A stretch of DNA of 20,285 nucleotides from Eimeria necatrix (Eukaryota > Apicomplexa > Conoidasida > Eucoccidiorida > Eimeriidae), in NCBI RefSeq assembly GCF_000499385.1, contig NW_013651672.1, positions 5,062 to 25,346 on the forward strand. Reading direction: 5' to 3'. Positions 2,790-18,821 of the stretch are shown in pieces. A model generated the notes under the pieces. That model was given only the letters and a program-made list of their open reading frames with translations, was not told the origin of the DNA and did not search any database. Numbering within the stretch: position 1 is the stretch's first letter; every line of letters starts with the position of its first letter. The position numbers and the translations under genes are program-made.

Positions 2790-3550
2790 AGGGAGTAAGA
2801 GGACGCTACGCTGATATGTTGTCACGTGATACAGGGCGCCGCGTTGCACTCCTTTTTGATAGAGCTGGGCTACGAAATTAAACGTGCTGCATGTGCTCCT
2901 AACTCTGCCTTGAGCGCGATTATGGTGAAGAAACGGGCTAGGTTCAGACGCATACTTATTTTGCTATGCAGTCCATCACGTTTGTTGAAGCGCCTGACGA
3001 TGAATATGGAAGGTGTTGTCTACCGAAATCCAATTGATGAGCAGTTGTATTCGCTGAGCTCTTGTTGCGAAGTGCTCAAGGGAACTGTGGGGAAAATAGC
3101 TCCTGCGATAAATTTTGGGGCCAGCGTGATGCGGTCGTTGTGTCGATGTCTTTTGTATTGTGCTTTGCTGCGCTGGGGCCGTCCCAAACGCGTGTGATTC
3201 ACCCAGGATTTCCGAATTTTTCTCGCGCATGGACTTCGCTAAGCTCCTCGAACATGCATGCAGCAAACGATAAAGAGAGCACCGGCCGAGCTACAGTGCA
3301 GTTTTCGGCTAAGCTGCCTTTTATTCAATGACCCGATGTAGCTCGAGAGCCTGCAAAGGCACCACAGTTGCACCCTAGCGGAATTTAAGAACCGCCGGCG
3401 CATGGACTTGTAGCTGGACACAGGGTAGGCGCCTCACCTCGTTTTGCGCGCATAGGAATTGCTTGGATACTGTCTGTTGTTGCTTGTTATTGGACGTCAA
3501 AATTTTATGAGGCGACCAAGTGAGACAGGTGCGTGATGAACCGCATGATC
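2790..3550 (+). repeat. Array unit 1 (B body, 5'-truncated)
   Basis: This is the first recognisable array unit. It retains a CACGTG at 2823-2828, in the context that follows the TATA box in other units, then jumps directly into a B-type body homologous to unit 3 (5575-6230). The leader, intron 1 and exon 2 blocks are missing. TGCATGC is at 3255-3261. A + frame at 2826-3197 aligns over about 95 residues with the frame at 5540-5986 of unit 3. Differences between the two copies fall about equally on all codon positions, so this looks like DNA similarity rather than protein conservation. The left boundary is approximate. Confidence 0.7.
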
Positions 3551-4304
3551 ATTTTTTTCCCGCGGTGTCTATGGAGCGCTCAAGTGAAACTTGTCACGCG
3601 AAAGACTGTTCGCAGGATACTGACCTTCTAGGAGGTGCGTTTTGCTTATGAGAAAGTAGCTGAGAGTCGTGAAGGTAGCGGCGACGCTTCCGTGGCTCTA
3701 TTGCTTGGTGGCAATTTTGCTATTGCGTTTTCATTCGCAGCAGCGCCAGCTATTCACGTTAGCTTTTTGTTGTAAAATTAGAATGCTGTAGTGAACAAGC
3801 TGTTTGAACAGCTTATTTCTATTGTTGTTTGTTTTGCAGCCATAATAGCTTCCCGCAGAATGTGTCGCTTTAAAATTGCGGTGCTCTTTGCAGGTGCGCA
3901 CCGCAGATTTCTCTTGTATGTGCTGCCAGCGCCAAACAGTACTGAGGTATGAACGGCTAGCATTCATTTGATCAACACAAATCGCACATTAGTGTTGACT
4001 ACGAATGGGACAAAGAAATGGTCTCTCTTCATGCTGCTGCTGCAAAATCAAAGCATCCTACTTCATGCACTCAGACACTACGCCGAAAAAATGAAGCATC
4101 CTCGAAATACGCGGCCTTCGGCTGCGTTTCTTGCAGTGTATCTGTGAGAGGTTGTGACAGGCCGCGTATTTCGAGCTACGAAGTAAAAAAGCCGCATCAC
4201 ACTGAGTGCATGAAGTAGGATGCTTTGATTTTGCAGCAGCAGCATGAAGAGAGACCAAAAGAAACAGGGTAAGCATCAGTTGTCTAATGTGCGATTTGTG
4301 CCGT
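3551..4304 (+). repeat. Array unit 2 (body replaced by inverted repeat)
   Basis: The 5' half follows the unit plan: CCGCGG at 3560-3565, a degraded TATA region just after it, a donor-like GTGCGT at 3635-3640, and a pyrimidine tract ending in TTTTGCAG at 3839, giving a 205-nt intron-like span. The exon-2 block follows from 3840. At about 3961-3970 the expected second acceptor and body are lost and an inverted repeat (3976-4300) takes their place. An 18-nt palindrome, AAGCTGTT-TG-AACAGCTT, lies inside the intron at 3797-3814. The right boundary is where similarity to the other units stops. Confidence 0.7.
3976..4300. repeat. Long inverted repeat with two in-place complemented 26-nt blocks
   Basis: The arms are 3976-4117 and 4159-4300, 142 nt each, around a 41-nt loop. 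Reading inward they pair as 17 bp perfect (3976-3992 with 4284-4300), 26 nt mirrored (3993-4018 against 4258-4283), 56 bp perfect (4019-4074 with 4202-4257), 26 nt mirrored (4075-4100 against 4176-4201) and 17 bp perfect (4101-4117 with 4159-4175). In the mirrored blocks one side is the exact reverse, not the reverse complement, of the other, so identical bases face each other in a hairpin. Comparison with units 3 and 5 shows that 3993-4018 and 4176-4201 are the altered copies, each at nt 18-43 of its arm. Confidence 0.95.
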
Positions 4305-4935
4305 TTGAGGGCGTTTGTAGTCTCTGCCCTTGATTGGATTCGAACGTATTTTTCGTGTAAATGCGACTCGCTGCTCGTGCAGATTGCCGCACATGTATCA
4401 TGAAAGGCGTTTAATTAAAAGCGTTTACTCGCGTTGGCTGTAGGCTTAGACCGTGTCGGATGTTAATACACATTTTTTTACTTTGTAAAACGAAATTGAC
4501 AGCGAGATGCCGAATTTCGGCTTCAACTGAGGCTTCCTGGTGCACAAATAATAAACGTCTTACATTAAAATGTGCGACATGTTCGCCAGTTTGTACGGTA
4601 GTTTCAGGCTGTTACTTATTTTGTCTGTAGCACGCATCATGCTCTTTAACTCACTTGCTACGGCATGATGATGATTTAGGAAGTTGAGCTGGGACTTTGA
4701 TGAGTTTTGCTTATCAAGGTGTTCTTGCAAAGTGCTGAAGAGAATTTGGAGGCACCATTGCACCTTCAAATAGCTTCGGGAAAACGTGACGCGGTTGGTC
4801 TGCTGATGCCCTTTCCACTGCGATGTGCAGTTTGGCGATTCTCGCAGAATTGTGCAATTTACCCACCGGTTCAAGGGATATGTCGTTTTACTAACTTCAC
4901 TGGAGTCCTCCATGTGTGATCTATCGGAAAACGGC
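4305..4935. other. Non-repeat spacer between units 2 and 3
   Basis: This stretch does not align by eye with any array unit. An AATAAA hexamer occurs at about 4549, and frames on both strands between 4560 and 4943 lack family motifs or coding-like third positions. GGATTCGAAC at about 4335 resembles a tRNA B box, but no A box or cloverleaf is present. It may be an insertion into the array or a very diverged body; I see nothing that decides between these. Confidence 0.5.
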
Positions 4936-6229
4936 CCCTGCATGATCCCTATATAACGCTCGAAAGAGGCTGTCCTCCCAAGTAGATATACGATGTGCCC
5001 TGGCGTTCCAGACGGTATGTTTATTGTAATTAGGATGTGATAGGATGTAGTAAACGTACTGCCAAAGCATTCACGTTTTTATTGTTCAGCGGCGCATTCG
5101 CCATTGAGTTTATGTCGCATTCGCTGTGACGTCACATATTCACGTCAGCCTTTGTTGCAGATCAGGCTCTTGTAGCTAACACGTCGCATAAATGCAATAT
5201 GTCCTTCCTCCCGTTGTTTCACAGGCATGATAGCTTCACGCAGGAAGAGTGGCTTTAAACTGCAATGCGTTTTGCAGTTGAGCGTCACAGGTTTCTGCTG
5301 TATGTGCAGCCAGCACTGGACAATACTGAGTCAAAGCGTAGCATTCATTTTCCCATCCTCTTTAGGTCGTCCAGGCTTCTTGCAGTGTATCTGAGAGTGC
5401 ATGTTGAGCGCTGCGTGTTTCGAGGATGCTATATATTTTGGGCGTCGTGTCTGCATGCCTGGAGTATGATGCTTTGCTTTTGCTGCAGCACCACGAAGAG
5501 AGACAAAAAGATCCTGGATAAGCACCCATTGCCTGATTAATGCCCATTTTCTGGTCTCTGACAACATTTGGCAACTGTGCTCTGAACACAATTATGGTGA
5601 AGAAACGTGCTAGTTTCAGACGGATACTTATTTTTCTATGTAGTGCATCACGTTTATTGAAGCGCCTGACGATGAATATGGACGGTTTTGTTTGCCGACG
5701 TCCAGTTGATGCGCAGTCGTATTCGCTGGGCTATTGTTGCGTAATGCTGAAGAGAGCTATGAAAACCATAGCGCCTGCAATAAACTTTTGGACCGGACTG
5801 ACGCGATCGTTGTCTCAATGTCTTTTGTATTGTGCTTTGCTGCGCTGGGGTCGTTCCAAAACGTGTGATTCACTCAGGTTTTCTAAAAATTATCTTGCAG
5901 ATGGATTTCGCTTGGCTCCCCGAACATGCATGCAGCGAAGGATAAAGAGAGCACCGCCGCCCAGCTACAGTGCAGTGTTCGGCTAAGCTGCCTTTTGCTC
6001 AATGGCCCGATGTGGCACGAGAGCCTGCAAAGGCACCACAGTTGCACACATGCGGAATTTAAGAACCGCCGGCGCATGCATTTGTAGCTGGACACGGGGA
6101 AGGCGCCTCACCTCGTTTTGGGCGCATACGAAATGTTTGGATAACTGCTTGTTTTCGTTTGTTATTGGACACCCGTCAAAATTTTGTGAGGCGACCAAGT
6201 GAGATTGGTGCGTGATGCATCGCATGATC
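4936..6229 (+). repeat. Array unit 3 (complete, B body)
   Basis: This is the only full-length B-type unit, about 1.29 kb. It has TATATAA at 4950-4956, a donor-like GTATGT at 5015-5020 and an acceptor CACAG ending at 5224, a 210-nt intron-like span. The second acceptor is a pyrimidine tract plus TAG near 5366. The body has TGCATGC at 5927-5933. A + frame of 148 codons with a true ATG at 5540 ends at 5986. It is the longest ATG frame in the array but is shifted or stopped in unit 5 and in all A units, so coding is doubtful. The last 129 nt (6101-6229) belong to a tract identical to one in unit 5. Confidence 0.75.
4941..5020 (+). promoter_or_regulatory. Diverged TATA promoter and leader of unit 3
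   Basis: TATATAA at 4950-4956 is followed 65 nt later by GTATGT at 5015. The sequence between them ends in a block resembling the TGGCC-TTCCAG-G block that precedes the donor in other units. CCGCGG and CACGTG are absent here, so this is the most diverged promoter that keeps a TATA box. Confidence 0.45.
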
Positions 6230-6277
6230 ATTCTTTCGCCGCGGTATCTTTGGAGCGCTGAAATGGGATGTACCACG
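6101..6277. repeat. 177-nt tract identical to 8265-8441
   Basis: Every base from 6101 to 6277 matches 8265-8441 (offset 2164), while the flanks differ at once. The tract spans the end of the B body and the next unit's CCGCGG/TATA region. The surrounding unit copies are much more diverged, which points to recent gene conversion or unequal crossover. Confidence 0.9.
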
Positions 6278-7229
6278 AGGACACGTGTTTGGACGAAGTT
6301 CTGTAATTAGTATGTACGTTTTGTTGATAACACCGAGCTGTACTGCGGAGTGAAAGAATAGCATTCATTTGTTTATCCTTTCTAGGTTGGCTGTGTTTTT
6401 CGCAGTGGATCTGTGAGCGGTTTTGGCACGCTCTGTGTTTCGAGGGTGCTACATATTTTGGACATAGTGTCTGATTGCACGGAGTAGGATACTTCGACTT
6501 TGCGCCAAAAGCACAAAGAGAGACGAACGAATACACGATAAGCACTGATTGTCTAGTGAATGCGCACTACGGGCCGTCTGGGAACATGTTGCAGTTCTGC
6601 GCTGGATCACGTTATGATGATGGGAATGTGCTAGTTTCAGACGAGTATTTGCTCTTTTATGCCGCGCATCACGCTTGCTGAAGCGCCGTACAATGCATGT
6701 AATGGTGATGGTTGAACTGTTGCGCAGTTATATTCGTTGAGCGGTTGTTGGGACGTGATGAAATGAACTGGGAGGCATTGTAGGGAATCACGTGTGGAGC
6801 CGAAATGACGCGGGAGGTGCAACAAAGTTCTTTGTATTGTGGTATGCAGGGCTGCAGTTGTTGCACAAGGGTGTGACTCAGTCAGGCTTTCCAAAATCAT
6901 CTCTTTCCTGGATCTCGTGTAGCCTTTTGCATATGCATGCAGCGCGCAATAATGAGACAGCTTGCCCATCTACACCGGCGTTGTTCGCTTTGCGGGTCTT
7001 TTGTCGACTGGCGGGGATAGCTCTAGAGCCTGTAATGGCATCACTCGTGCACTGAATCGGGGATTACGAAATTCCGCCGTACGCACTTGCAGGTGTGTGC
7101 AGTGTAGACGTCAGGCTGTTGGCCTGTGCCTATGAACTATTTGAGCAACTGCCTGCTGTCCATTCCTATTGGGCATCACAATCCGACAGGGGAACCTACT
7201 GAGCACCATGCATGATGCGCTGCATCATT
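6230..7229 (+). repeat. Array unit 4 (A body, intron 1 deleted)
   Basis: The unit starts with CCGCGG at 6239-6244 and a weakened TATA (TATCTTT) just after it. Donor-like GTATGTACGT is at 6310-6319. The sequence then jumps from about 6325 to the block that normally precedes the second acceptor (CTTTCTAG near 6388), so intron 1 and exon 2 are missing. The body is A-type, with TGCATGC at 6934-6940. The last 230 nt match the A-unit end that leads into the next promoter. Confidence 0.7.
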
Positions 7230-8389
7230 ACTTCGCCGCGGTATATAAAGGGTGCGGAAGAGAAACATGTCACTTGAAGGGGCGCTTGCAGGTTGCTGGC
7301 TCTTAGCAAGTACGCTTTGTTAATGCGCGGGTATCCGGTAGTCGTGGAGTTGGCGGATATGAACTCAATGTTTTATTGTTTAATGTGCTGTCGCGTTTGC
7401 GTTTACTTCCCATACGCAGTGGAGGCAGATATTCACGTCAGCCTTTGTTGCGAATTAGGATGCTGTGGAACAGACGTACTTTGGCGACATTGAATCTTTT
7501 TGTATGTCTTGCAGCCTCAATAGCTTTCCGCACGAAGGAGCTGCTTGAAAAGCGCAATGGTATTTGGAGCTTCGCCCAGCAGATTTCTGTTTTATGTGCA
7601 GCCCACACCGAGCCGTACTGGGGAGTGAGAGAGTAGCATTCATTTGCTCATCCTCTGTAGGTCGCCTGTGTTTGGAGTATGCTACATATTTTGGGCGTAA
7701 TGTCTGAATGCCTGCAGTATGATGCTTCGATTTTGCAGCAGCAGCATGAAGAGAGACCAGAAGATCCAGGATAAGCACTGACTGTCTAATCAATGCGCAT
7801 TTTCTGGTGTCTAACCACATTTGGCAACTCTGCTCTGAACACAATTATGGTGAAGAAATGTGCTAGTTTAGACGAATACTTATTTTTCTATGCAGTGCAT
7901 CAAGTCTGTTGGAGCGCCTGACGATGAATATGGAAGGTTTTGTTTGCCGAAGTCCAGATGATGCGCAGTTGTATTCGCTGAGCTATTCTTGCGCAATGCT
8001 GAAAGGAACTGGGAAAACAAAGCGCGTTGAATCACATTTTCATTCGAAATGACGCTGTCGTTGTCTCGATGTCATTTGTAGTGTGCTTTGCTGCGCTGGG
8101 GTCGTTCCAAAACGTGTGATTCACTCAGGACCGGCCTAGCTACAGTGCAGTGTTCGGCTAAGCTGCCTTTTGCTCAATGGACGAGAGCCTGTAAAGGCAC
8201 CACAAGTCCACCCATGCGGGTCTTAAGAAACGCCGGCGCATGCACTTGTAGCTGGACACAGGGTAGGCGCCTCACCTCGTTTTGGGCGCATACGAAATGT
8301 TTGGATAACTGCTTGTTTTCGTTTGTTATTGGACACCCGTCAAAATTTTGTGAGGCGACCAAGTGAGATTGGTGCGTGATGCATCGCAT
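7230..8389 (+). repeat. Array unit 5 (chimera: A-like 5' part, B body)
   Basis: The 5' part is canonical: CCGCGG at 7236-7241, TATATAAA at 7242-7249, donor GTACGC at 7310-7315, acceptor CTTGCAG ending at 7514 (205 nt), exon-2 block 7515-7559, second donor-like GTATTT at 7560 and second acceptor CTCTGTAG ending at 7660 (101 nt). A deletion near 7675 removes part of the post-acceptor block. From about 7720 the body is B-type, and a second deletion near 8130 removes the TGCATGC region. A 1-nt loss near 7868 shifts the frame that is open in units 1 and 3. Confidence 0.7.
7236..7315 (+). promoter_or_regulatory. TATA promoter and leader of unit 5
   Basis: CCGCGG is directly joined to TATATAAA (7242-7249), followed by a GCGGAAGAGAAACATGTCAC-like stretch and, 68 nt after the TATA box, the donor-like GTACGC at 7310. 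In this unit the CACGTG seen in later units is changed to CACTTG. The spacing fits RNA polymerase II initiation about 30 nt after TATA and a leader exon of about 40 nt, which is inference. Confidence 0.55.
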
Positions 8390-8985
8390 GATCATTCTTT
8401 CGCCGCGGTATCTTTGGAGCGCTGAAATGGGATGTACCACGTGGGCAAGTGTTTAAAGCCAGCTGTACAATTAGTGCGTACGTTATGTCGATGGGATAGT
8501 AGCGAGGAGTCGTGAAGGTATCAGCGGTGCTTCCGTCGTTCCGGTGTTAAGTGCAATTTCGTCTTTGCATTTAGTTCCCATTCGCAGTGGCGGCTGATAT
8601 TGACGTCAGCCTTTGTTGCAAATTAGGATGCTGTGGAGCACAAGCAGGTTGGCGGCATTGAATCTTTCGGTGTGTTTGCAGCCTCAATAGCACAAAAGAC
8701 CTGCTTGAAAAGCGCAATGGTATTTGGAGCTTCGCCTGGCAGATTTCTGCTTTTTCTGCAGCCAACAGCGAACTGTACTGAAGAGTGAAAGAACAGCATT
8801 CATCTGCTCATGCTTTCTAGGTTGGCTGTGTTTTCCGCAGTGGATCTGTGTGCAGTGTAGACGTCAGGCTGTTGGCCTGTGTGAGTATGAACTATTTGAG
8901 TAACTGCCTGCTGTCCACTACTATTGGGCATCAAAATCCGACAGGGGGACCTACGCAGCACGATACGTGATTTGCGGCATCATTC
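8390..8985 (+). repeat. Array unit 6 (body deleted)
   Basis: CCGCGG is at 8403-8408, followed by a weakened TATA (TATCTTT) identical to that of unit 4 through gene conversion. A donor-like GTACGT is at 8478-8483 and the acceptor TTTGCAG ends at 8681 (204 nt). The exon-2 block and second acceptor (CTTTCTAG near 8820) are present. At about 8849 the sequence jumps directly to the unit end, so the whole body is missing and the unit is about 0.6 kb. Confidence 0.7.
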
Positions 8986-8996
8986 CGTTGGCGCAA

Positions 8997-9076
8997 TTAT
9001 ATATATATCGCGCGCTGAAGAGAAATGTGTCACGTGAATAGGTGTGTGCAGGGACCTGGCCATCCAGGGAGTATGT
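8997..9076 (+). promoter_or_regulatory. TATA-like promoter and leader of unit 7
   Basis: A 12-nt T/A run (8997-9008) takes the place of the TATA box, and CCGCGG is lost. CACGTG at 9031-9036 and the TGGCCATCCAGGGA block before GTATGT (9071) are kept, 73 nt after the run begins. Confidence 0.5.
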
Positions 9077-9375
9077 TTGGTTGGAGAAGAAGTACCGAGA
9101 AGTCTATGGCATAGCGGCAACGCCCTGAATGTTTTAAGTTTTATTTCCATGTCGCGTCCGCGTTTATTTCCTAGTCGCAGTGGCGGCTGTTATTCACATC
9201 AGCCTTTGTTGCAAATTGGGATGCCGTCGACCACAACTGCTTTGGCGACATTGATTTTTTTTCGTGTTTGCAGCCTCAATCGCTGTCCGCACGAAGGAGC
9301 TGCTTGAAAAGCGCAATGGTATTTGGAGCTTCGCCTGGCAGATTTTTGCATTATGTCCAGCCAACACCGAGCAGT

Positions 9376-10074
9376 ACTGCGGAGTGAAAGAGTAGCATTC
9401 ATTTGTTCATCCTTTCTAGGTTGGCTGTGTTTTCCGCAGTGGATCCGTGAGCGGTTGTGGCACGCTGCGTGTTTCGAGCGTGCTACATATTTTGGGCCTA
9501 ATGTCTGAGTGCACGGAGTAGGATGCTTCGACTTTGCGCCAAAAGCACAAAGGGAGACGAACGAATACCCGATAAGTACTAATTGCCTAGTGAATGCGCA
9601 TTTCGTGCCGTCTGGGAACATGTTGCAGTTCTGCGCTGGCTCACGTTATGATGAAGGGAATGTGCTAGTTTCAGACGAATATTTGCTCTTCTATGCCGCC
9701 CATCACGCTTGCTGAAGCACCGGACGATGCATGTAGTGGTTCGGCTCGTAAAGGTCGAACTGTTGCACAGTTATATTCGTTGAGCGGTTGTTGGGACGTG
9801 ATGAATTGAACTGGGAGACATTCTAAGGAATCACGTTTGGGGCCGAAATGACGCGGGCGGTGTGGCAAAGCTCTTTGTATTGTGGTCTGCAGGGCTGCAG
9901 TCGTTGCACAAGGGTGCGCCTCAGCCTTTCCAAAATCATCTATTTCCTGGGTCTTGTATAGCTTTCTTACACATGCATGCATCGCGCGATAAAGAGAGCA
10001 TTTGCGTGTCTACACTGAGGTTGTTCGGTATGCTGGATTTTTTTTTCATTTGACAGGATAGCTCTAGAGCCTGT
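9376..10074. repeat. Left copy of a 699-nt exact duplication
   Basis: Identical to 10176-10874 at a constant offset of 800. The following base differs at the contig edge (G at 10075 against A at 10875). Other copies of the same body in units 4, 8 and 9 differ at many positions, so perfect identity here is out of line with the array. Confidence 0.95.
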
Positions 10075-10075
10075 G

Positions 10076-10175
10076 NNNNNNNNNNNNNNNNNNNNNNNNN
10101 NNNNNNNNNNNNNNNNNNNNNNNNNNNNNNNNNNNNNNNNNNNNNNNNNNNNNNNNNNNNNNNNNNNNNNNNNNN
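10076..10175. other. Assembly gap of exactly 100 N
   Basis: Exactly 100 Ns, a size commonly used for gaps of unknown length. It is flanked by the two halves of an exact 699-nt duplication, which indicates that two overlapping contig ends were scaffolded without being merged. Confidence 0.98.
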
Positions 10176-10874
10176 ACTGCGGAGTGAAAGAGTAGCATTC
10201 ATTTGTTCATCCTTTCTAGGTTGGCTGTGTTTTCCGCAGTGGATCCGTGAGCGGTTGTGGCACGCTGCGTGTTTCGAGCGTGCTACATATTTTGGGCCTA
10301 ATGTCTGAGTGCACGGAGTAGGATGCTTCGACTTTGCGCCAAAAGCACAAAGGGAGACGAACGAATACCCGATAAGTACTAATTGCCTAGTGAATGCGCA
10401 TTTCGTGCCGTCTGGGAACATGTTGCAGTTCTGCGCTGGCTCACGTTATGATGAAGGGAATGTGCTAGTTTCAGACGAATATTTGCTCTTCTATGCCGCC
10501 CATCACGCTTGCTGAAGCACCGGACGATGCATGTAGTGGTTCGGCTCGTAAAGGTCGAACTGTTGCACAGTTATATTCGTTGAGCGGTTGTTGGGACGTG
10601 ATGAATTGAACTGGGAGACATTCTAAGGAATCACGTTTGGGGCCGAAATGACGCGGGCGGTGTGGCAAAGCTCTTTGTATTGTGGTCTGCAGGGCTGCAG
10701 TCGTTGCACAAGGGTGCGCCTCAGCCTTTCCAAAATCATCTATTTCCTGGGTCTTGTATAGCTTTCTTACACATGCATGCATCGCGCGATAAAGAGAGCA
10801 TTTGCGTGTCTACACTGAGGTTGTTCGGTATGCTGGATTTTTTTTTCATTTGACAGGATAGCTCTAGAGCCTGT
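10176..10874. repeat. Right copy of the 699-nt exact duplication
   Basis: The copy begins at the first base after the Ns, as expected if it is the start of the next contig. It continues smoothly into the rest of an A-type unit at 10875, so this copy carries the true downstream join. Confidence 0.95.
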
Positions 10875-11078
10875 AAAGGCATTACTCGTGCACACAGTCG
10901 GGGATGACGAAACCCCGCCGTGCGCACTTGCAGCTGTGTACAGTGTAGACATCAACTTGTTGGGCTGTGTGCTTATGAACTATTTGAGTAACTGCCTGCT
11001 GTCCGCTCCTATTGGGCATCAAAATCCGACACAGGGATCTACTGAACACCATACGTGATGCGCAGCATCATTCTTTCG

Positions 11079-11159
11079 CCGCGGTATATAAAGGGTGCGG
11101 AAAAGAAACATATCACGTGAATAGGTGTTTGCAGGGCCCTCGCCATCCAGGGAGTATGT
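11079..11159 (+). promoter_or_regulatory. TATA promoter and leader of unit 8
   Basis: This is the reference version of the module: CCGCGG directly joined to TATATAAA, then AAGGGTGCGGAAAAGAAACA, CACGTG at 11114-11119, the CGCCATCCAGGGA block and GTATGT 69 nt after the TATA box. Similar order and spacing recur in units 5, 7, 9 and 10. Confidence 0.6.
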
Positions 11160-11358
11160 TTACTTGATAAAGAGGTATTGGGAAATTGAGGGCATAGCGG
11201 CTATGCCCTCAATGTTTGATTGCTTGACGCGATGTCGCGTTTGTGTTTACTTGCCATTCGCAGTGGCGGCAGATATTCCCGTCAGCCTTTGTTGCAAATC
11301 AGGATGCTGTAAGGAACAAGCTGTCCGGAGACATTAAATATTCTTGTATGTTTTGCAG
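11154..11358 (+). other. Putative intron 1 of unit 8
   Basis: It begins GTATGT and ends with a pyrimidine-rich run plus TTTTGCAG. The equivalent spans in units 2, 3, 5, 6, 7 and 9 are 203-211 nt and keep both ends: a GTATGT, GTACGY or GTGCGT donor and a pyrimidine tract plus CAG. The interior varies more freely. The acceptor side is the stronger evidence, since the tract varies in exact sequence but stays pyrimidine-rich. Confidence 0.5.
11188..11210. repeat. Perfect 11-bp hairpin in unit 8
   Basis: GAGGGCATAGC (11188-11198) and GCTATGCCCTC (11200-11210) are exact reverse complements separated by one base. The homologous position in units 7, 9 and 10 keeps only the left half (GGCATAGC-like) and an imperfect right half, so the perfect form is specific to unit 8. 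Confidence 0.8.
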
Positions 11359-12359
11359 CCTCAATAGCTATCCGCACGAAGGAGCTGTTTGAAAAGCGCG
11401 ACGGTATTTGGAGCTTCGCCTGATAAATATCTGCTCTATCTGCAGCTAACACCGAGCCGTACTGAGGAGCGAAAGAGTAGCATTCATTTGCCCATCCTTT
11501 TCAGGTTGGCTGCGTTTTTCGCAGCGGATCTGTGAGCGGTTGTGGCACGCTGCGTGTTTCGAGCGTGCTACATATTTTGGGCCTAATGTCTGAGTGCACG
11601 GAGTAGGATGCTTCGACTTTGCGCCAAAAGCACAAAGGGAGACGAACGAATACACGATAAGTACTAATTGCCTAGTGAATGCGCATTTCGTGCTGTCTGG
11701 GAACATGTTGCAGTTCTGCGCTGGCTCACGTTATGATAAAGGGAATGTGCTAGTTTCAGACCAATGTTTGCTCTTCTATGCCGCGCATCACGCTTGCTGA
11801 AGCAGCGGACGATGCATGTAGTGGTTCGGCTCGTAACGGTCGAACTGTTGCACAGTTATATTCGTTGAGCGGTTGTTGGGACGTGATGAATTGAACTGGG
11901 AGACATTCTAAGGAATCACGTTTGGGGCCGAAATGACGCGGGCGGTGTGGCAAAGCTCTTCGTATTGTGGTATGCAGGGCTGCTGTTGTTGCACAAGGGT
12001 GTGACTCAGTCAGGTTCTCCAAAATCATCTCTCTCCAGGATCTCGTATAGCCTTTTGCACATGCATGCGGCGCGTGATAAAGGGACAGCGTGACCATCTA
12101 ACCCAGAGTTGTTTCCTTTGCGGGTTTTTTTTGACCGTCGGGGATAGCTCTAGAGCCTGTAAAGGCATCACTTGTGCACTCAATCGGGGATTACGAAATT
12201 CCGCCGTACGCACTTGAAGCTGTGTACAGTGTAGACGTCAGACTGTTGGCCTGTGTGCTTAATGAACTATTTGAGTAACTGCCTGCTGTCCACTCCTATC
12301 GGGCATCAAAATCCGACATGTCGACCTACTGAACACCATACGTGATGCGCTGCATCATT

Positions 12360-13660
12360 CCTTTGCCGTGATATATATATATATATATAGCGCGCTGAAG
12401 AGAAACGCCTCACGTGAATAGATGTTTGCAGGGACCTCTCCATCCAGCGAGTATGTTTGGTTGGTGAAAAAATTTCGAGAAGTCAAGGGCATAGCAGCAA
12501 CGCTCTCAGTGTTTTAGGTTTAAGTGCCATGTCGGGTTTGCGTTTACTTCCCAGTCGCAGTGGCAGTGACAGCTGATATTCCCGTCGGCCTTTGTTTCAC
12601 ATTAGGATGCTGTCGACCACAAGTGCTTTGGCGACATTGAAGTTTTTTTTGTGTTTTGCAGCCTCAATAGCTGTCCGCACGAAGGAGCTGCTTGAAAAGC
12701 ACAATGGTATTTGGAGCTTCGCCTGGCGGATATCTGTTTTATCTGCAGCTAACACAGAGCAGTACTGAGTAGTGAAAGAGTAGCATTCGTTTGCTCATCC
12801 TTCTTAGGTTGGATGTGTTTCTAGCAGTGAATCTGTGAGCGGTTTTGACTGGTTGCGTGTTTTGAGGGCGCTACATATTTTGGACCTAATGTCTGAGTGC
12901 ACGGAGTAGGATGCTTCGACTTTGCGCCAAAAGCACAAAGGGAGACGAACGAATACACGATAAGTACTAATCGTCTAGTGAATGCGCATTTCGTGCCGTC
13001 TGGGAACATGTTGCAGTTCTGCGCTGGCTCACGTTAGGATAAAGGGAATGTGCTAGTTTCAGATGAAAATTTGCTCTTCTGTGCCGCGCATCACGCCTGC
13101 TGAAGCACCGGACGTTGCACGTAATTTTTTTGCTTTTAAAGGTCGAACTGTTGCGCAGTAATATTCGTTGAGCGGTTGTTGGGACGTGAAGAATTGAACT
13201 GGGAGACATTCTAGGGAAAGACGTTTGGGGCCAAAATGACGCGGGCGGTGTGGCAAAGCTCTTCGTATTGTGGTATGCAAGGCTGCTGTCGTTGCACAAG
13301 GGTGTGCCTCAGCCTTTCCAAAATCATCTCTCTCCTGGGTCTTGTATAGCTTTCTTACAAATGCATGCATTGCGCGATAAAGAAATCATTTCCCCATCTA
13401 CGCTGAAGTTTTTCGCTTTGCTGGATTTTTTTCCATTTGACAGGATAGCTCTGGAGCGTGTAAAGGCATCACTCGTGCACACAGTCGGGGATTACGAAAC
13501 CCCGTCGTATGCACTTGCAGCTGTGTACAGTGTAGGCGTCACATTGTTGGCCTGTGTGCTTATGAACTACTCGAGTAACTGTCCATTGGCCGTTCCTAAT
13601 GGACATTAAAATCTGACGGGGGGACCTACTCTGCAACATACGTGATGTGCTGCATCATTC
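12360..13660 (+). repeat. Array unit 9 (complete, A body)
   Basis: About 1301 nt from TATA region to TATA. A (TA)n run at 12371-12388 replaces the TATA box, CACGTG is at 12411-12416, donor GTATGT at 12451-12456, and acceptor GTTTTGCAG ends at 12661 (211 nt). The second acceptor is CTTCTTAG near 12808. The body has TGCATGC at 13362-13368. The + frame that is open in units 4, 7 and 8 has a TAG near 13036 here, which argues against a conserved product. Confidence 0.8.
12370..12456 (+). promoter_or_regulatory. Expanded TA-run promoter and leader of unit 9
   Basis: The TATA box has become an 18-nt TA dinucleotide run (12371-12388), followed by CGCGCTGAAGAGAAA, CACGTG at 12411 and GTATGT at 12451. 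The extra length accounts for the larger spacing of 80 nt. Confidence 0.5.
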
Positions 13661-13904
13661 TTTCGCCGCGGTATATATAGGTTGCGGAAAAGAAACATGT
13701 CACGTGAATAGATGTGTGCAGGGTACTGGCCTTGTAGAAAGTACGTTTTGTTAGTGAGGGAGTATCTGGGTGTCCTGGAGATAGCGGGTGTGCGCCCTCA
13801 TATGTTGTTCGTAGTTTTCTCGTGCATGGATTCCAGTTAGCTCCTTAAACACGGACATCAAAATCCGATGAGGAGACCCAGTGAGCATGATACGTGCTAT
13901 ACCG
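13661..13904 (+). repeat. Array unit 10 (short, chimeric)
   Basis: It has CCGCGG at 13666-13671, TATATATA at 13672-13679, CACGTG at 13701-13706 and donor GTACGT at 13741-13746, 69 nt after TATA. Near 13800 it jumps to a piece of B body (similar to 3215-3255 of unit 1) and then to the end-of-unit sequence. No acceptor follows the donor within the unit. Confidence 0.65.
13666..13746 (+). promoter_or_regulatory. TATA promoter and leader of unit 10
   Basis: CCGCGG, TATATATA, CACGTG and GTACGT are all present at canonical spacing, although the unit behind them is nearly gone. Confidence 0.5.
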
Positions 13905-14300
13905 CATCCTCTCTTCGCGTTATCAATAGCACGCTGAAGAGAAGCATGTCACCTGAATACGTCTTTGCTGGATACTGGATACTGGCATTGCAGTACGTAT
14001 GTTTTGTTTAAAAGGAAGTATCGAGAAGTCGTGGCGGTAGAGGCGATGCATTCGTTTTTCTTAGAATCCAGCTGAAGATTTCATACTGCATTTGTTTAAC
14101 ATTCACAATGTCGCATATTCACGTAAGCGTCTGCTGTAAATTGGGATGCTGTGGTGAGCATGTAGTTTGAAGGCATTAAGTCTTTTTGTTCCGTGAGCTA
14201 TGGCAGCTGGCAACACGAAGGAGATGCTTGATTATTGCATGCGCTGCGATGGTCAACCAGACAGCAGAGAGGCACCGGTATTTTCTGTATTGTAAGATTT
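13905..14300 (+). repeat. Array unit 11 (terminal, decayed)
   Basis: The last recognisable copy. TTATCAATA at about 13919 stands in for the TATA box, and GTACGTATGT is at 13993-14002. The intron-1 and exon-2 blocks can be followed to about 14300, but the acceptor reads GTGAG instead of TGCAG at 14197. A short tandem of GGATACT occurs at about 13970-13983. The right edge is uncertain: weak similarity to the exon-2 downstream region may extend to about 14330. Confidence 0.55.
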
Positions 14301-18388: not shown

Positions 18389-18821
18389 TGCGGTTTCTAA
18401 TACTCTTGCGAATTCGGTAAATATAATGCCTAGCCATCAATATGGCGACTTGCCATTTTTTTGCGGAGGGCGTGTTTGCAATCACGACCCCTGTATGCAC
18501 ATTGGTTGATGTTATGCTTCTACAAGCATGCGTCTCGGCTGCTTCTCGCTCGCGTTGACCCGATCAGGAGCGTTTAAATGCAGTGGTCTTCCACGGTATA
18601 TTCGTTTGAGAGCAGCATTCCTCGCATGACGCTCCTTTTTGTCGAGCTTTACGCGCCGCCAAACCGCCGTGTAGCTGCTACCCTTCCATGATAATTGATC
18701 TCGTGCTGCGGGGTGTTAGAGTGCAATGCTCTAGTGCTTCGAGCTTGGACGTATATCGCTTCACGTGCGGACACCCCAAAATTGGACAGGACATACGCAA
18801 TTGAAATATGTGTGGCTCTTT
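18389..18821. other. No gene seen
   Basis: This stretch lies between the TATA-like module and the duplicated segment. If the module is active this would be intron or 5' leader. No acceptor stands out clearly enough to call. Confidence 0.35.

Follow-up and report, generated by a model that had tools for sequence, protein, structure and literature searches.

In-place complemented blocks recur in the draft genome assembly of Eimeria necatrix and most likely do not reflect a feature of its DNA

Exact in-place exchange of A with T and of C with G has been described by Seligmann as swinger DNA, for instance in the 16S gene of the Kamimuria wangi mitogenome; in the words of that account, 'only this author describes them' (PMC4942731). 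The blocks reported here resemble the description in being exact in-place complements set into normal sequence with abrupt switches, a change that the same account also terms 3'-to-5' inversion without complementing and places in nuclear as well as mitochondrial genes (PMC4942731). The setting differs, since swinger DNA is described there chiefly from ribosomal RNA genes (PMC4942731), whereas the present cases are short blocks in repeats, spread over many contigs of a single draft. Artificial palindromes described after whole-genome amplification are likewise near-perfect inverted duplications with a short loop, but they appear to be ordinary reverse complements, unlike the 26-nt blocks studied here (PMC6218980). 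Template-switch mutations insert a nearby inverted copy, as seen in the left arm of our locus, which replaces 7 nt and has 1-2 nt in common with the flanks at its junctions; template switching yields reverse complements, and in-place complements lie beyond it (PMC7954356).

The E. necatrix genome was sequenced on the Illumina HiSeq 2000 and is reported as 3707 contigs; the species is named among genomes that received automatic improvement only, and the same passage of that source places it in two tiers (PMC7564333). The assembly searched here holds 44,016,600 bases in 1148 contigs, partly N. The window, by which we mean the whole 20,285-nt stretch of DNA analysed, is C173:5062-25346 and is identical in its letters; the two altered blocks described below fall at C173:9054-9079 and C173:9237-9262. 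The pattern that we describe is real in the record and recurs across the assembly, and the DNA itself most likely lacks it.

Two unreversed blocks in an inverted repeat

Realignment of the two arms as reverse complements (Table 1) gave match runs of 17, 56 and 17 nt with two full runs of 26 mismatches between them, reproducing the symmetric 17-26-56-26-17 layout of each arm that the first-pass annotation had described. Outside the two 26-nt blocks the arms are perfect reverse complements (90/90), as claimed there; pairing beyond the arms and within the loop is only scattered. Both blocks carry the plain reverse, not the reverse complement, of the partner side, and this earlier claim of an exact mirror also stands. 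The two mirror pairs are the sole non-self mirror matches of at least 14 nt in the window when low-complexity words are excluded; one self-mirror 15-mer lies at 18655-18669. Given mismatch, the probability that all 52 of 52 positions would be complementary is about 1.5e-25, in agreement with the earlier statement that chance is negligible. The ends of the blocks are exact, because complementing alters every base. The altered blocks start 183 nt apart; on the + strand each is 26 nt long and begins after 17 nt of its own arm. The fold energy of the locus (-108.5 kcal/mol, z -17.2) merely restates the inverted repeat.

The altered side of each pair was decided by comparison with four paralogues (C337, C1070, C224 and C260) aligned from among the 38 matches listed for the locus. 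C337 is identical to window 4117-4420 at 265 of 278 positions outside block 2, and within that block it agrees at every position once the letters are complemented in place (Table 1). The pre-image of block 1 matches C337 at 23/26 positions; in local alignment against C337, C1070, C224 and C260 it scored 20, 22, 18 and 10, versus 9, 7, 12 and 8 for the altered form. Other units of the window separated the two forms of block 2 (17 vs 11) but not those of block 1 (11 vs 11). Judged by the paralogues, the left arm is altered at 3993-4018 and the right arm at 4176-4201. The first-pass annotation had made the same assignment from units within the window, evidence that holds for block 2 and is undiscriminating for block 1. 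Moreover, block 1 derives from the right arm of this same locus, because it mirrors a right-arm base that is missing in all four paralogues (GAAAC vs GATAC).

Each altered 26-mer has a single match in the assembly with up to 3 mismatches allowed, and no donor was found elsewhere in the assembly at that tolerance, stretches reading N excepted. Alignment spoke against ordinary direct-orientation homology of the altered blocks. Block 2 aligned to the reverse complement of its own canonical form with a score of 3, above the 95% value of the shuffles (-7), an unfair control, since the shuffles had been compared with the direct form alone. A protein search with one frame across block 2 returned one candidate and no scored match, Rfam returned no family at the gathering score, and one 21-mer searched in viral contigs gave no match.

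The left arm is absent in 4/4 aligned paralogues. In C337 and C1070 the flank reads ACA-TCTTAAG-TTCGG, and the window carries inverted 3978-4116 instead of TCTTAAG; the junctions of the insertion share CA and T with the flank. An inverted copy of a nearby stretch with an empty site in the relatives is the expected outcome of template switching. However, the insert is not throughout the reverse complement of its source, agreement at 3993-4018 being 0/26. The left arm may have arisen by true template switching, or it may belong to the same misplacement as the blocks.

Table 1. Coordinates of the features in the window, with altered states assigned from the paralogues.
Feature	Position	Strand	Description
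Left arm	3976..4117	+	Inverted copy of the right arm, 142 nt; relative to paralogues, about 139 nt (3978-4116) are inserted in place of about 7 nt
Altered block 1	3993..4018	+	Exact reverse of 4258-4283, i.e. in-place complement of the canonical sequence
Left-arm core, intact, 56 nt	4019..4074	+	100% reverse-complementary to 4202-4257
Left-arm block, canonical state	4075..4100	+	Reverse complement equals paralogue C337:8771-8796
Loop, 41 nt	4118..4158	+	Ordinary unit sequence, common to paralogues
Right arm	4159..4300	+	Ancestral sequence of the repeat unit; keeps register with the direct repeats
Altered block 2	4176..4201	+	Exact reverse of 4075-4100; C337 0/26 as written, 26/26 after in-place complement
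Right-arm block, canonical state	4258..4283	+	Carries a base that none of the four aligned paralogues has; block 1 mirrors it too
100-N gap	10076..10175	.	Flanked by identical copies of 699 nt (699/699; 9376-10074 = 10176-10874)

Recurrence in the assembly

In-place complements are detectable in repeats alone. We scanned 24 non-overlapping stretches of the assembly (251,750 bases, of which 57,031 are N, in long runs that include L013 1-5061) for exchanged runs (13 nt or longer) bordered on each side, along the same diagonal, by 12/14 or more plain matches, excluding low-complexity and very frequent words. The complement rule returned two loci, the one described above and a second on C100, and the exchanges A<->G,C<->T and A<->C,G<->T returned none in the same stretches under the same thresholds. 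A second scan, by period, covering the 12,407 bases that form exact tandem arrays with periods of 5-99, gave the C100 array alone for the complement rule and none for the two other exchanges; an earlier, looser version had additionally returned an AT-rich run with poor flanks on stretch L038.

The array on C100 is AT-rich with units of 29-32 nt. It reads normally to base 111, is complemented from 112 to 186 and is then normal again. The 75-nt block (C100:112-186, in stretch L035, which is C100:1-10000) is the exact complement of 205-279 (75/75, in phase), with 14/14 and 13/14 plain matches on the same diagonal at its flanks. By composition, the chance of such agreement is about 2e-32, and the best fit of the block to the array is 42/75 as reverse complement and 40/75 as plain sequence. 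A length of 75 nt is a usual read length.

Two further searches were run. Across blastn searches of 24 letter exchanges, the complement gave 8 hits at E <= 1e-4 (six at this locus, one on L035 and one self-mirror on L037), and the other exchanges gave 0 to 1046, with at most six listed for each, so that counts for those exchanges are not specific. Mirror runs of at least 16 nt were found at six other places (L016, L035 and four in L038), none flanked on both sides by inverted-repeat matches. This mirror scan, which left out low-complexity words and self-overlapping mirrors, is blind to direct in-place complements, which is why the C100 block is absent from its results.

Switches were further sought in the AAACCCT arrays, which are common in Eimeria (PMC7564333). 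The backwards form of this heptamer is its own in-place complement on the other strand; (AAACCCT)3 occurs 44,244 times in the assembly and its backwards form 24 times, on 10 contigs. The entry pattern (AAACCCT)2 N{0,13} (TTTGGGA)2 had five matches, with gap lengths of 7, 7, 0, 7 and 7, and 0 and 7 are the only lengths within N{0,13} that preserve phase. In three of these matches the middle is a single unit that changes exactly from plain to complemented letters partway (AAACCC|A, AAAC|GGA and A|TTGGGA). The match with gap 0 switches where two units meet, and the remaining one, on C958 (TGCTGGA), keeps the phase but is inexact. Exit switches gave three matches at two sites, both exact: TTTGG|CT on C660 and a unit boundary on C975. 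All seven heptamer boundary sites are thus in phase and six are exact, some of them in mid-unit; the exact ones lie on C194 (near 583), C588 (near 88), C660 (near 29546), C688 (near 29962 and 30099) and C975 (near 17535). The same heptamer pattern had no match in viral contigs, a weak control in that such arrays may be rare in viruses.

CAG arrays contributed six matches at five sites on four contigs (C671, C701, C1100 and C1123), all in phase. This evidence is weaker, because at one-base gaps half of the bases (two of four) would fit. In the 24 sampled stretches (CAG)5 occurs 1060 times and its backwards form not once. The CAG pattern had three matches in viral contigs, representing two distinct sequences, and the middles there are not split units.

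Recurrence, which a software artefact would predict, was found on C100, on the five contigs with exact heptamer switches and on the four with CAG switches. At the inverted repeat, in the C100 array and at the heptamer switches, A is exchanged with T and C with G, in phase, with sharp ends and no change of length. In 6 of 18 site-bearing contigs (C100, C194, C588, C627, C701 and C1100) the site lies within 600 nt of the contig start, an enrichment confounded by the tendency of repeats toward contig ends.

Origin of the complemented blocks

Polymerase copying and DNA joining are antiparallel. The first-pass annotation was right to argue that polarity-preserving rearrangements are unable to yield an in-place complement. 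It had offered two causes, an algorithmic error in handling a palindrome or a deliberate edit. Error remains the best reading, but a palindrome is unnecessary: since the 75-nt block on C100 and the heptamer cases sit in direct tandem arrays, an inverted repeat is not a prerequisite.

We consider it very probable that the in-place complements, here and on the other contigs, come from a faulty strand-handling step of the assembly software and from no event in DNA. A consensus or gap-filling step of the short-read pipeline would have written stretches complemented with their order unreversed, or the reverse. A read- or contig-derived stretch may have been placed correctly with half of the reverse-complement operation done, and such a half-converted stretch would have become the consensus where there was no other coverage. 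At this locus, one 142-nt piece might have been used twice, once per orientation, with its list of positions not reversed along with it; a shared + strand offset of 17 and length of 26 in the two arms would follow from this. The occurrence in several array types, the 75-nt length on C100, the sites near contig starts, the Illumina-only draft and the 699-nt doubling within the array all fit a software artefact. Among the matches listed in a literature search, no assembly tool with a complement-only fault was identified. A complement mask on packed words is not supported, as the block spacing of 183 nt (183 mod 4 = 3) is not word-aligned, and FASTA line width did not hold up as a cause either.

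The recurrence and the sharp in-phase switches are equally predicted by swinger-type copying, in which a polymerase would write T where A belongs and C where G belongs, and vice versa, over tens of bases of the nuclear genome. On their sequence, the present cases carry the marks by which swinger DNA is recognised, namely a stretch that is the in-place complement of a homologue (26/26 twice, 26/26 against C337 and 75/75 on C100) and an abrupt switch, which is base-sharp at this locus, on C100 and at 6/7 heptamer boundary sites. The exchange of A with T and of C with G is also the only rule that the author reports for DNA in that account (PMC4942731), and within 3976-4300 the offset runs in the same direction and on the same strand in both arms. 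Eimeria DNA would then now and then be copied in the parallel sense, leaving scars in repeats genome-wide and, at this locus, twice at equal distances in hairpin-forming arms, a proposition to which we give a small chance. We know of no enzymology for swinger copying. The sequence examined is a short-read-only draft, the C100 block equals a usual read length, and swinger-type copying as a whole appears unlikely to us. Its basis in that account consists of database sequences which, by the account's own statement, one author alone describes (PMC4942731). The first-pass annotation had held that the pattern, if real, would need an unknown mechanism; this has to be amended, as the transformation is already in print under one proposed, contested name (PMC4942731). 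If the letters were present in the DNA, template copying would not always be antiparallel.

If a strand-handling error is instead responsible, the draft genome of this poultry parasite has scattered base-flipped blocks, so far seen in repeats alone, and genes may be affected too. Claims of swinger DNA based on database sequences would then have a simple explanation as well. The several loci named above allow existing reads, or a long-read Eimeria assembly such as the one that exists for E. tenella (PMC9131526), to decide the matter directly.

A scripted edit that complemented characters 18-43 of each arm at 3976-4300 only would account for the identical offset and length, counted from the left of each arm. 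We nevertheless regard it as highly unlikely: the assembly carries the same letters as the window, and the same change recurs at independent places, on C100, a contig picked irrespective of it, and at switches assembly-wide. The deliberate edit suggested earlier has accordingly become unlikely.

It is likewise very improbable that the inverted repeat in its entirety arose as a fold-back chimera during library amplification and carried the blocks in with it. The zero divergence between the arms outside the blocks would suit such an origin, and artificial palindromes have been described after whole-genome amplification (PMC6218980), but a chimera accounts for the arms and neither for the unreversed blocks nor for the examples in direct arrays. 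For a locus within an array of diverged copies one might consider gene conversion, ordinary mutation or a series of rearrangements; these are scarcely credible against 52/52 and 75/75 complementary changes with sharp ends, and without a donor of the altered 26-mers elsewhere in the assembly, N stretches aside. Chance is rejected by the probabilities at the two loci (about 1.5e-25 here and about 2e-32 at C100).

The surrounding repeat array

The locus lies within an array of diverged direct-repeat units at 2900-14200, many of them about 1.3 kb apart, with relatives on C337, C1070, C224 and C260. Tandem Repeats Finder returned nothing for this array at a longest period of 500. The gap within it (Table 1) probably marks contig ends of this array that were left unmerged, and one repeat unit may have been counted twice there. 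Searches of Pfam with six frames outside 3976-4300, among them two of the five recurrent minus-strand frames of the array, gave no match at E <= 0.1, a result uninformative on the locus itself. The five frames (6637-6969, 9671-9982, 10471-10782, 11756-12097 and 13059-13370) are similar to one another, encode 103-113 aa and recur across the units; those at 9671-9982 and 10471-10782 lie in or beside the doubled 699-nt stretch.
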